A DNA stretch of 64,000 nt, from assembly GCF_011751885.2 (NCBI RefSeq), contig NZ_CP061771.1, positions 1-64,000 on the forward strand. Direction: 5' to 3'. The notes under the pieces were generated by a model that was not told the origin of the DNA, did not search any database, and was given only the letters and a program-made list of their open reading frames with translations. This document shows positions 30,190 through 32,576 of the stretch, one piece after another. The number at the start of each line of letters is the position of its first letter. Position 1 is the stretch's first letter. The DNA comes from Salinibacterium sp. ZJ450 (GTDB lineage Bacteria > Actinomycetota > Actinomycetes > Actinomycetales > Microbacteriaceae). A program made the position numbers and the translations under genes.

Positions 30190-30488
30190 GGCTCGGCTCG
30201 CTGCCGCGTCGCCTGTACCCGCACGGCAGCGCGATCATGAACACCCTGCAGCAGCTCGCCGGTGCGGCGGGCACCGCGGTGCTCATCGCAGGGATGACCA
30301 TCGGGGCGGCGATCGCTGCCACCGCCGGGGCCGACGCCGCGCTCGCCCAGGCCGAGGGTGCGCAGACCGCGTTCATGGTCGGCGGAGTCATCGCGCTGAT
30401 CGGTGTGGTGTTCTCGTTCTTCGTGCGTCGCATCCGTGAGGATGCCGCCGACGGTGCCGACCGGCCCTTTTCGCGTACGGCGGAGTAA
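30190..30488 (+). pseudogene. C-terminal remnant of a DHA2-type MFS drug exporter
   Basis: The frame from about 30190 encodes LGSLPRRLYPHGSAIMNTLQ, QQLAGAAGTAVLIAGMT and a last transmembrane helix (FMVGGVIALIGVVFSFFVRR), which match the last two helices of EmrB/QacA-type (DHA2) exporters. Nothing of the preceding 12 helices is present: 51 bases upstream the MarR gene ends. Between 30139 and 30190 another frame reads LVPGAILMAVGSA, which may be a frameshifted piece of the same gene. It is best read as a deletion remnant. Confidence 0.65.
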
Positions 30489-30547
30489 GTTGGTCGGCAA
30501 ACAGACGGGCACTCGATGTGGGAGAGAGCCGAGGCACAGTGGCATCC

Positions 30548-31936
30548 ATGGATCGGCGGACCTTCCTGATCGCGTCGGCATCGAGCCTTGCCATCGCCGG
30601 CCTCGTCGGCTGCACCGACCAGCGGCCGCCCACGCCGTCCCCGACAGCCACCGCGTCACCGACGCCCGCCCTGGTGCCTACGCCCGCCGCGTTCCGGCGC
30701 ACCGCCTGGTCGACCGACCCGTTCTCGCGGGGCGCGGCCAGCTTCTACGCCACAGGGTCGAATCCGGATGACCGCGCGACGCTGCAGACCGCCGTCGAGG
30801 ATCGACTGTTCTTCTCTGGGGAGGCGGTATCCGCGAACCCCGGCACCGTGACCGGGGCGATCGGATCGGGGCGCGCCGCCGCGCAGCAGGTGGCCGATCT
30901 GGCAGCCGTCGGCGAGCGGATCGGCGTGATCGGCGCCGGGGCGGCCGGCCTTGCTGCCGCGCGGGCACTCGCGGACGCCGGGTTCGAGGTGGTGGTGATC
31001 GAGGCACGCGACCGCATCGGCGGACGCATCGCCACCTACGAGTCCGACGACTGGCCGTTCCCGATCGAGTTGGGCGCGTCATTCCTGCAGAACGGCACCG
31101 GCGACCCCCTGGTCGAGGAGCTGAAGAACGGCGGGCTGACCGTGCGCGCACTGCCGGAGACCGTTGAGACCCGCGCCCCGGACGGCGCCGTAGTGGAGCA
31201 GTCGCCGGTGCCTGCGGAGGTCGTGGCCGAGGCCGTCGCTTGGGCCGCCGCGGGCCGCCGGGACGTCTCAGTGGACACGGCGATCGCCGACTCCGGCGCG
31301 GGCGAGGTGTCGACAACCGGCGCCATCTCCGAGGCCGACTGGCTGGCGCAATACCTGCAGACGCAGCTGGCGGCGGATGTCGGCGCGCCCGCGGACGAGT
31401 TGTCGGCCTGGTACGGGGTGAGCGAACAGGCGGGCGATGGTCAGATCGTGCTCGGCGGCATGATGGCAGTGCTCGAGCGCGAGGCGGAGGGGCTGGACGT
31501 CGTGAGCTCGAGCGTGGTCACCCGCATCGTGCACACCGAGGCGGGGGTCAGCATGCGCCTCGCAACCGGTCAGTCGCTGACCGTGGACCGGGTGATCATC
31601 ACCGCTCCGCTCGGCGTCCTCAAGTCGAGCGCACTCGAGTTCGACCCGCCACTGCCGTTCGGCCACCGTGCGGCGATCGACGCGCTGGGAATGGGCGCCC
31701 TCGAGAAAGTCTGGCTGCGGTTCGACGAACCGTTCTGGCAGGCCACCACCGCGCTCTGGCGCACGGTGGGCACCGAAACCGACTTCGCCATGTGGGTCAA
31801 CCTGCAGCCATTCACCGGCGACCCCGTGCTGATGGGGATCGCCACCGGTGACGCCGCCCGCCGGGTCGCCGAGTTGACCGACGACGACGTGCTGCGCGGG
31901 GCTCTGCTCAGTCTCGAACCCTTCGCTCGGCCGTGA
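30548..31936 (+). CDS. Tat-exported flavin amine oxidase with permuted domain order
   Basis: A 462-residue FAD-dependent oxidase of the monoamine/polyamine oxidase fold. The start MDRRTFLIASAS is a twin-arginine signal, with lipobox LVGC at Cys22, then a Pro/Thr linker to about residue 48. FAD dinucleotide binding lies at 126-160 (GVIGAGAAGLAAARAL, EARDRIGGR). In normal family members the motif WSTDPFSRGAASF...LFFSGEAVS...PGTVTGA...SG lies at the C-terminus. Here it is at residues 54-109, before the FAD motif, and the protein ends where that segment would begin (TDDDVLRGALLSLEPFARP). It appears circularly permuted. Substrate unknown. Confidence 0.85.
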   Translation: MDRRTFLIASASSLAIAGLVGCTDQRPPTPSPTATASPTPALVPTPAAFRRTAWSTDPFSRGAASFYATGSNPDDRATLQTAVEDRLFFSGEAVSANPGTVTGAIGSGRAAAQQVADLAAVGERIGVIGAGAAGLAAARALADAGFEVVVIEARDRIGGRIATYESDDWPFPIELGASFLQNGTGDPLVEELKNGGLTVRALPETVETRAPDGAVVEQSPVPAEVVAEAVAWAAAGRRDVSVDTAIADSGAGEVSTTGAISEADWLAQYLQTQLAADVGAPADELSAWYGVSEQAGDGQIVLGGMMAVLEREAEGLDVVSSSVVTRIVHTEAGVSMRLATGQSLTVDRVIITAPLGVLKSSALEFDPPLPFGHRAAIDALGMGALEKVWLRFDEPFWQATTALWRTVGTETDFAMWVNLQPFTGDPVLMGIATGDAARRVAELTDDDVLRGALLSLEPFARP

Positions 31937-32576
31937 CCGAACGACTGCGGGTGACCGGGTCCCACCGGGTGGTCGCGGCAAGCAGGGCGGCGACGCCGGC
32001 GATCACGGCGAGGGCTCCGACGCAGTACAGCGCCGTCTCCCAGGGGTTCACCTGAACCGGGTCGAGGAAGAAGTACGGATACCACCCCACGAGCGGACTG
32101 CGGATGAAGGTGAAGACGCCCCAGACCAGCGGAAACGGCACGGACAGCAGCGCGGTCACGCCGCTCACATGCACCCGGCCGGGCGCGAACAGCCAGTCGG
32201 CAAGAGCCGCGAGCGGCAGCCAGAAGTGCAGCAGCTGGCTCGAGAACGGCACATCCACCCGCACGTCGTTGACCGCCCACTGGCTGAGAATCACCACCGA
32301 GACCAGGCCAGAGGACACCGTGTACGTGGTCACCAGCGCGCGCAGCACGTCGAACCACAGTGGATCCGACATCCGCAATTCGGCGAGAATGCCGCCGGCG
32401 ATGAAGACGGCCACCGCAATAATCGCGCTCTGCACCGTGAAATAACTGAAAAAGTTGCCGATCACGGATGCCGGAAAGCCCAGCGTGTACTCGATATCGC
32501 CGATCAGCGCGAACACCCAGACGCCGGCGAGCAGAAAGCGCGCGGCCCCGAACACCCGACGAGTCGTGCCGCTCAT
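31908..32576 (-). CDS. Pr6Pr-type integral membrane protein
   Basis: A 222-residue protein with about six hydrophobic segments, including FLLAGVWVFALIGDIEYTLG, NFFSYFTVQSAIIAVAVFIA and AVIAGVAALLAA. The conserved FSYFTVQS and the YPYFFLDP segment between the last two helices match what is called the Pr6Pr membrane family in Actinobacteria; function unknown. ATG 32576 gives a natural start (MSGTTRRVFGAARFLL); the frame continues upstream but without conserved content. Its 3' end overlaps the amine oxidase 3' end by 29 bases, convergently. Confidence 0.72.
   Translation of the reverse strand: MSGTTRRVFGAARFLLAGVWVFALIGDIEYTLGFPASVIGNFFSYFTVQSAIIAVAVFIAGGILAELRMSDPLWFDVLRALVTTYTVSSGLVSVVILSQWAVNDVRVDVPFSSQLLHFWLPLAALADWLFAPGRVHVSGVTALLSVPFPLVWGVFTFIRSPLVGWYPYFFLDPVQVNPWETALYCVGALAVIAGVAALLAATTRWDPVTRSRSVTAERRVRD

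Follow-up and report, generated by a model that had tools for sequence, protein, structure and literature searches.

A probable natural circular permutation of the flavin amine oxidoreductase fold in a predicted lipoprotein of Salinibacterium sp. ZJ450 and its relatives

The oxidase gene and its neighborhood

The window analyzed here is the stretch of 64,000 nucleotides that opens contig NZ_CP061771.1 of Salinibacterium sp. ZJ450 (positions 1 to 64,000, forward strand); the genome is a single contig of 3.83 Mb. An intact gene for a flavin amine oxidase lies within it, as seen in Table 1. Alternative in-frame GTG starts at 30539 or 30518 lie a few codons upstream of the ATG at 30548, and the claim of a permuted domain is indifferent to which of the three is used. 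No close paralog was found in the 3.83 Mb of the organism's own genome, where the other six matches scored at most 34 bits, and no plasmid copies were found at 1e-10.

The N terminus carries a twin arginine (RR-x-F-L) and then a lipobox ending at Cys22, both read directly in the sequence. R3, R4, and C22 were invariant in all 13 aligned proteins (the window protein and 12 homologs). In the first structure model, pLDDT was below 50 at residues 1-28 and 30-38. These motifs suggest that the window protein, a relative of monoamine oxidase, is probably exported and anchored to the membrane.

A gene for a Pr6Pr family membrane protein converges on the oxidase gene, and the 3' ends of the two overlap by 29 bases. 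A second Pr6Pr gene is present elsewhere in the same genome. The term Pr6Pr had no occurrence in the open-access literature searched. Between the oxidase and a MarR-like gene (named by eye), positions 30222-30488 (+) encode an apparent C-terminal end of an MFS transporter, with a weak PF07690 match below the cut-off. Since the rest of the transporter is absent there, this stretch is probably a gene remnant.

Table 1. Features of the permuted oxidase locus (positions of the window; residues of the oxidase)
Feature	Position	Strand	Evidence
Circularly permuted flavin amine oxidase gene, 462 aa	30548..31936	+	Intact ORF; PF01593 207.3 bits, two stretches
Predicted Tat lipoprotein signal, residues 1-22 (RRTFL ... 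LVGC)	30548..30613	+	Sequence
Pro/Thr/Ser-rich tether, residues 23-42	30614..30673	+	Sequence; low model confidence
Displaced C-terminal FAD block, residues 43-118 (RTAWSTDPFSRGA, FFSGE, PGTVTGA, terminal helix)	30674..30901	+	PF01593, KDM1B, shuffles
New junction, ~5 residues, from last block helix (101-118) to first Rossmann strand (124-128)	30902..30916	+	Model secondary structure
FAD dinucleotide-binding beta-alpha-beta motif, residues 124-160	30917..31027	+	NAD_binding_8 58.8 bits
Catalytic core, residues 123-457, ordinary internal order	30914..31918	+	KDM1B 337-692
Lys359 in LGVLK, aligned with the lysine near flavin N5	31622..31624	+	Alignments
Pr6Pr family membrane protein gene, convergent (ORF open to 32747)	31908..32576	-	NF038065 80.7 bits, cut-off 30

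Order of the amine oxidase domain

The initial annotation had placed the C-terminal motif of the amine oxidases ahead of the FAD motif, and this reading was borne out. The segment WSTDPFSRGAASF begins at residue 54, FFSGEAVS and PGTVTGAIGSG then run up to residue 109, and the GxGxxG...E motif for FAD follows at about residues 124-160. The protein ends where the ordinary C-terminal block would begin, as had also been proposed, and the homologs end alike. All the motifs of the C-terminal FAD block (W..DPF..G, GE, and GTVxGA) are present, at residues 43-118. The linear order of the family, with the Rossmann motif first and the C-terminal block last, is swapped, and the protein was therefore filed as a permuted variant and not as an ordinary PF01593 member.

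Searches with profiles and solved structures gave the permuted alignment that the initial annotation had proposed to look for. In native order, the PF01593 score of 207.3 bits (cut-off 19.8) was made up of two stretches, of which the best aligned residues 133-457 with profile positions 2-362 of 443. The N-terminal 122 residues alone scored 52.2 bits, with residues 41-115 on positions 367-442 of 443. Once the protein was rotated, a single PF01593 match covered positions 2-442 with 227.9 bits, so joining the ends does restore the family order. The two stretches and their fusion into one match on rotation indicate that the domain is nearly complete, that nearly nothing is doubled, and that the order alone differs. 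With phmmer against the PDB, residues 123-457 aligned with KDM1B (4gu0) 337-692 and residues 43-116 with 700-774, again in swapped order; the i-Evalue of the latter stretch was 7.6e-6. As a control for chance, a profile of 424 positions was built from 21 ordinary homologs. Against this profile, residues 43-122 scored 86.4 bits (positions 345-420), and the best of 200 shuffled versions of the segment scored 6.6 bits. The N-terminal segment is thus alignable to the amine oxidase C terminus in each of these comparisons.

Apart from the oxidase domain, Pfam returned matches of the Rossmann type and some weak ones, PASTA for example, that stayed below cut-off. Among the best 25 of 75 NCBIfam families matched, none scored above its own cut-off. 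By these alignments, the ~75 residues that normally close the domain (the GE strand, the GTVxGA turn, and the final helix) are placed before the Rossmann strand, and the new termini, as aligned, separate the end of the core from the displaced block. Very probably, the flavin amine oxidoreductase fold has been circularly permuted in the window protein, and the change is natural and inherited.

Predicted structure and solved relatives

The first model, built with 13 sequences, had a pLDDT of 78.3 and a pTM of 0.78. A second model of residues 40-462 in native order, built with 45 permuted sequences, was confident (pLDDT 95.4, pTM 0.93). The alignment for the second model was free of ordinary sequences; the network itself was trained on ordinary structures. 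VIA-align 2 matched second-model residues 78-423 (117-462 of the protein) to LSD1 273-737 with Z 26.5 and rmsd 2.9 over 334 aligned residues, and residues 84-423 (123-462) to ZmPAO 5-379 with Z 25.2 and rmsd 2.8 over 332; these values describe the core, since the displaced block (second-model 4-79, residues 43-118 of the protein) fell outside the aligned range in most rows. The models support a permuted chain that would fold as one compact amine oxidase domain. The displaced segment would presumably lie beside the FAD.

The best solved match, by both sequence and fold, was the amine oxidase domain of LSD1/LSD2 (KDM1A/KDM1B), which has the same FAD motifs. LSD1 and LSD2 have the ordinary order, whereas the window protein is bacterial, carries an export signal, and is permuted. 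LSD1 and LSD2 are histone demethylases with extra domains, and the LSD1/KDM1 proteins carry SWIRM and tower or zinc-finger domains. No SWIRM, tower, or zinc-finger domain was found in the window protein with Pfam. The plant polyamine oxidase ZmPAO (1b37) shares the fold but has the ordinary order, and the counterpart of its C-terminal block stands at the front of the window protein.

Distribution of the permuted order

An initial search of genome contigs returned 20 loci. Twelve Microbacteriaceae proteins (from Salinibacterium, Herbiconiux, Frigoribacterium, Microbacterium, and Agromyces) had the order of the window protein. The ordinary order was found among those 20 loci at four from Pseudonocardiaceae, one from Planctomycetota, and two that were gammaproteobacterial, with L027 left unclassified. 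The Pseudonocardiaceae proteins of ordinary order L019, L020, L022, and L024 have a long C-terminal extension that looks, by eye, of the cyclic-nucleotide-binding type.

Larger genome samples were searched with a junction-only profile (A2), which consists of the C block and the Rossmann motif, and matches spanning the junction were counted by eye from the rows listed; the samples overlap and their thresholds differ (1e-15 to 1e-20). Among the matches listed, at least 134 of 398 Microbacteriaceae genomes had a junction-spanning match, counting G370 and G363, whose matches start at positions 27 and 40, and G012, whose match ends at 110. The class sample gave 28 of 394 genomes, 14 of them outside Microbacteriaceae, with G434 (2-112, at a contig end) included. 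The phylum sample gave 11 of 396, six of them outside the family; The match in G463 was left out of this count: by position it crosses the junction, but it is interrupted by a stop and was classed as ordinary. In two other classes of this phylum, the counts were 3 of 148, all three genomes being already among those of the phylum sample, and 4 of 149, with two new genomes. In Pseudomonadota, the phylum of the Xanthobacteraceae genome G1134, three of 200 genomes had such a match. None of 149 genomes did at 1e-18 in the phylum of a Planctomycetota genome, where the sole match, L105, was ordinary. In the class of G1270 (142 genomes), a match starting at the profile front was found in G1270 only; another row, G1493 (15-416), has two stops. 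The initial annotation had left it to related genomes to tell a conserved subfamily from a single case, and the occurrences in Microbacteriaceae, its class and phylum, and Pseudomonadota identify a conserved subfamily.

ORFs were sorted with a local profile made from three ordinary sequences (L093, L094, and L095), which gave 86 permuted and 31 ordinary ORFs. Removal of five duplicate loci left 81 permuted ORFs, all distinct; the 31 ordinary ORFs represent 28 distinct ones. These loci were the best-scoring or hand-picked ones rather than a random sample. Ordinary ORFs mostly matched in a single stretch from ~2 to 410, and permuted ORFs matched ~341-411 first and the remainder after it. The block started at positions 333-345 in 77 of the 81 permuted ORFs and at 308, 324, 364, and 373 in the others. 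The match ended at or before position 336 in 80 of the 81 and at 353 in one; some ended well before 336, two of these in short ORFs. The cut point is therefore nearly uniform across the permuted ORFs. The junction from the last block helix to the first strand was short in the homolog rows inspected.

These ends also bear on whether the order could be an error. The initial annotation had considered that homologs might keep an ordinary C-terminal motif that was lost here by a frameshift after 31936. None of the ORFs scanned had the C block twice, and the permuted ORFs end about alike. A frameshift or missing C terminus was rejected, since the homologs end at the same place. An artefact of sequencing, assembly, or frameshift is refuted by these homologs, since 81 ORFs of distinct sequence agree in order and, very nearly, in cut point; we give this reading almost no weight. 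The gene is a real protein variant and not a broken gene, because the same rearrangement recurs in many related bacteria.

The RR and lipobox pattern was matched in 66 of the 81 permuted ORFs, and some of the remainder were Tat-like and had no lipobox. The Tat lipoprotein form described in the initial annotation thus holds as a motif in the window protein and in these 66, but it is not universal. A clear signal peptide is missing from two permuted amine oxidases of Pseudomonadota, L102 and L103, so a permuted protein need not be an exported one.

A Pr6Pr homolog was found near 49 of the 81 permuted loci vs none of the 28 distinct ordinary loci (0/31 ordinary ORFs), where misses are upper bounds, since most loci had only ~1.5 kb of flank, and the contrast is not a clean control, since the ordinary loci come partly from other families. 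All 49 fall among the 56 loci of the main Microbacteriaceae clade, by the author's sorting. Shared descent alone could hold the pair together.

Flavin site and predicted activity

Residue conservation was counted over 45 permuted and 25 ordinary rows, three distant ordinary rows (L025, L026, and L097) having been removed before this count and before the quick tree below. The three glycines of the FAD motif and GGR were present in all 45 permuted rows and the E in 44. Most FAD-motif residues were about equally conserved in permuted and ordinary homologs, and we infer that the window protein would bind FAD. By alignment, Lys359 is the counterpart of LSD1 K661, which we take to be the lysine near flavin N5. 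A lysine occupies this position in 20 of the 45 permuted rows and in 15 of the 25 ordinary ones. The residue is Q, R, H, A, or N in the other 25 permuted rows (L012, L013, L018, and others) and Q, R, T, or N in the other 10 ordinary rows.

The lysine near N5 is described as nearly universal in the FAO superfamily and is tied to O2 reactivity in PMC12224317. The frequent replacement in our rows contrasts with that statement. Since the lysine is replaced in more than half of the permuted rows, O2 as the acceptor is unsure for the subfamily. Tat-exported bacterial FAO enzymes of the NicA2/Pnao type resemble the window protein in joining the superfamily to a Tat signal, and they have a cytochrome c gene as a partner nearby (PMC12224317). 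The window protein has the Tat motif, but a scan of the window from 20 to 42 kb for CxxCH (haem c) motifs found none in any ORF with at least 80 residues, so the cytochrome c arrangement given in PMC12224317 was not seen here. Of the Tat-bearing members without a cytochrome c neighbor, most of those tested react well with O2, with one exception (PMC12224317). This behavior points to the window protein as a putative extracytoplasmic amine oxidase.

It is moderately likely that the window protein oxidizes an amine. It is quite unlikely that the fold is kept in a non-catalytic or altered form, as an FAD-binding or redox-sensing lipoprotein without amine oxidation. Loss of the lysine in 25 permuted rows fits such a protein, as does the poor conservation of the middle region among the 13 aligned Microbacteriaceae proteins. 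However, ordinary rows replace the lysine as well, the window protein retains it, the FAD motif hardly varies at most of its residues, and the genes stay open across wide distances.

Origin of the permutation

A tree of 73 rows, with 45 of the 81 permuted and 28 of the 31 ordinary ORFs, put the permuted rows in several groups with five changes of order. They formed a single clade in 0 of 200 bootstrap trees, and the starred branches force at least two changes. A quick tree without the three distant ordinary rows had four changes, only one of which is forced by starred branches. A tree of 39 rows (23 permuted and 16 ordinary) also had four changes, with a single clade in 0 of 200 bootstrap trees and only one change forced. 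A single permuted clade was not rejected by the AU test on these 39 rows (p-AU 0.274).

The core and the moved block were also compared. Their identities correlate at 0.76 over all pairs and at 0.50 over permuted-ordinary pairs. For each of nine permuted rows, the three ordinary rows nearest to the core were compared with the three nearest to the block, and in eight cases the two sets had at least one row in common. For the window protein they had none, the nearest rows being L121, L120, and L095 for the core and L092, L084, and L105 for the block. The ordinary rows L092, L105, L120, and L121 were among the nearest to the nine permuted rows; L120 and L121 have 35% of core residues in common with the window protein. 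All four give one full-length profile match in ordinary order, unlike the window protein.

We favor one origin from one parental gene as the probable course, and several origins are possible. Independent permutations could have arisen at one structural site, where the ordinary ends are close together and the loop tolerates new ends; we regard this as possible, if rather less probable. The scatter of permuted rows among ordinary ones in all three trees, the lack of one clade in the bootstraps of the 73-row and 39-row trees, and the two forced changes in the former are what repeated origins would give. The nearly identical cut point and the short junction in all groups speak against them. The forced changes drop to one when the three distant rows are removed, many deep branches are weak, and the AU test leaves one clade standing.

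Another possible explanation is fusion, in which the C-terminal block of one amine oxidase gene came to lie ahead of a second, tail-truncated one. Neighboring amine oxidase genes do exist, as at the L093 locus, where the end of a second amine oxidase was read by eye upstream of the ordinary gene. L093 itself was rejected as a tandem-duplication intermediate: the gene has the ordinary order, and its match extended upstream past a stop. No duplication intermediate was found among the ORFs scanned, which would agree with fusion, as would the different nearest rows of core and block in the window protein. However, the shared neighbors in eight of nine rows and the correlated identities speak against it, and a tree of so short a block would not be decisive. 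We consider fusion of two different genes unlikely, and a single origin from one parental gene remains our preferred reading.

Discussion

A history consistent with these findings would start from a parental gene that was duplicated in tandem or fused, with the outer pieces then lost, probably once. Vertical descent plus some transfer would have followed. The protein would fold and take up FAD in the cytosol, and the loaded protein would be exported by Tat. The lipid on Cys22 would anchor it on the outer side of the membrane, where the C-N bond of a small amine may be oxidized. The reduced flavin would most likely be reoxidized by O2, because the lysine is kept in the window protein and no haem c motif is nearby. 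The permutation may also have been selected. By shifting the lipid anchor from the Rossmann strand to the junction by the substrate domain, it would turn the active-site entrance toward the membrane, where a membrane-bound amine would be oxidized together with the Pr6Pr protein; we regard this idea as speculative and quite unlikely.

Few flavoenzyme families have been studied as closely as the one that includes monoamine oxidase, LSD1, and polyamine oxidase. To our knowledge, this family is known in a single linear domain order. Among the papers listed in searches of open-access literature, none dealt with permuted members of the flavin amine oxidase family. No paper in the open-access literature searched had 'circularly permuted' together with 'amine oxidoreductase'. 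The string 'permut' was absent from the main text of PMC12224317.

Linear profile searches report permuted proteins as split matches, as in the PF01593 result above. A permuted branch that is natural and widespread would demonstrate that exchanged ends can still form the FAD site. It would also offer natural new termini for engineering and would give many sequence pairs for examining how and why enzymes permute.
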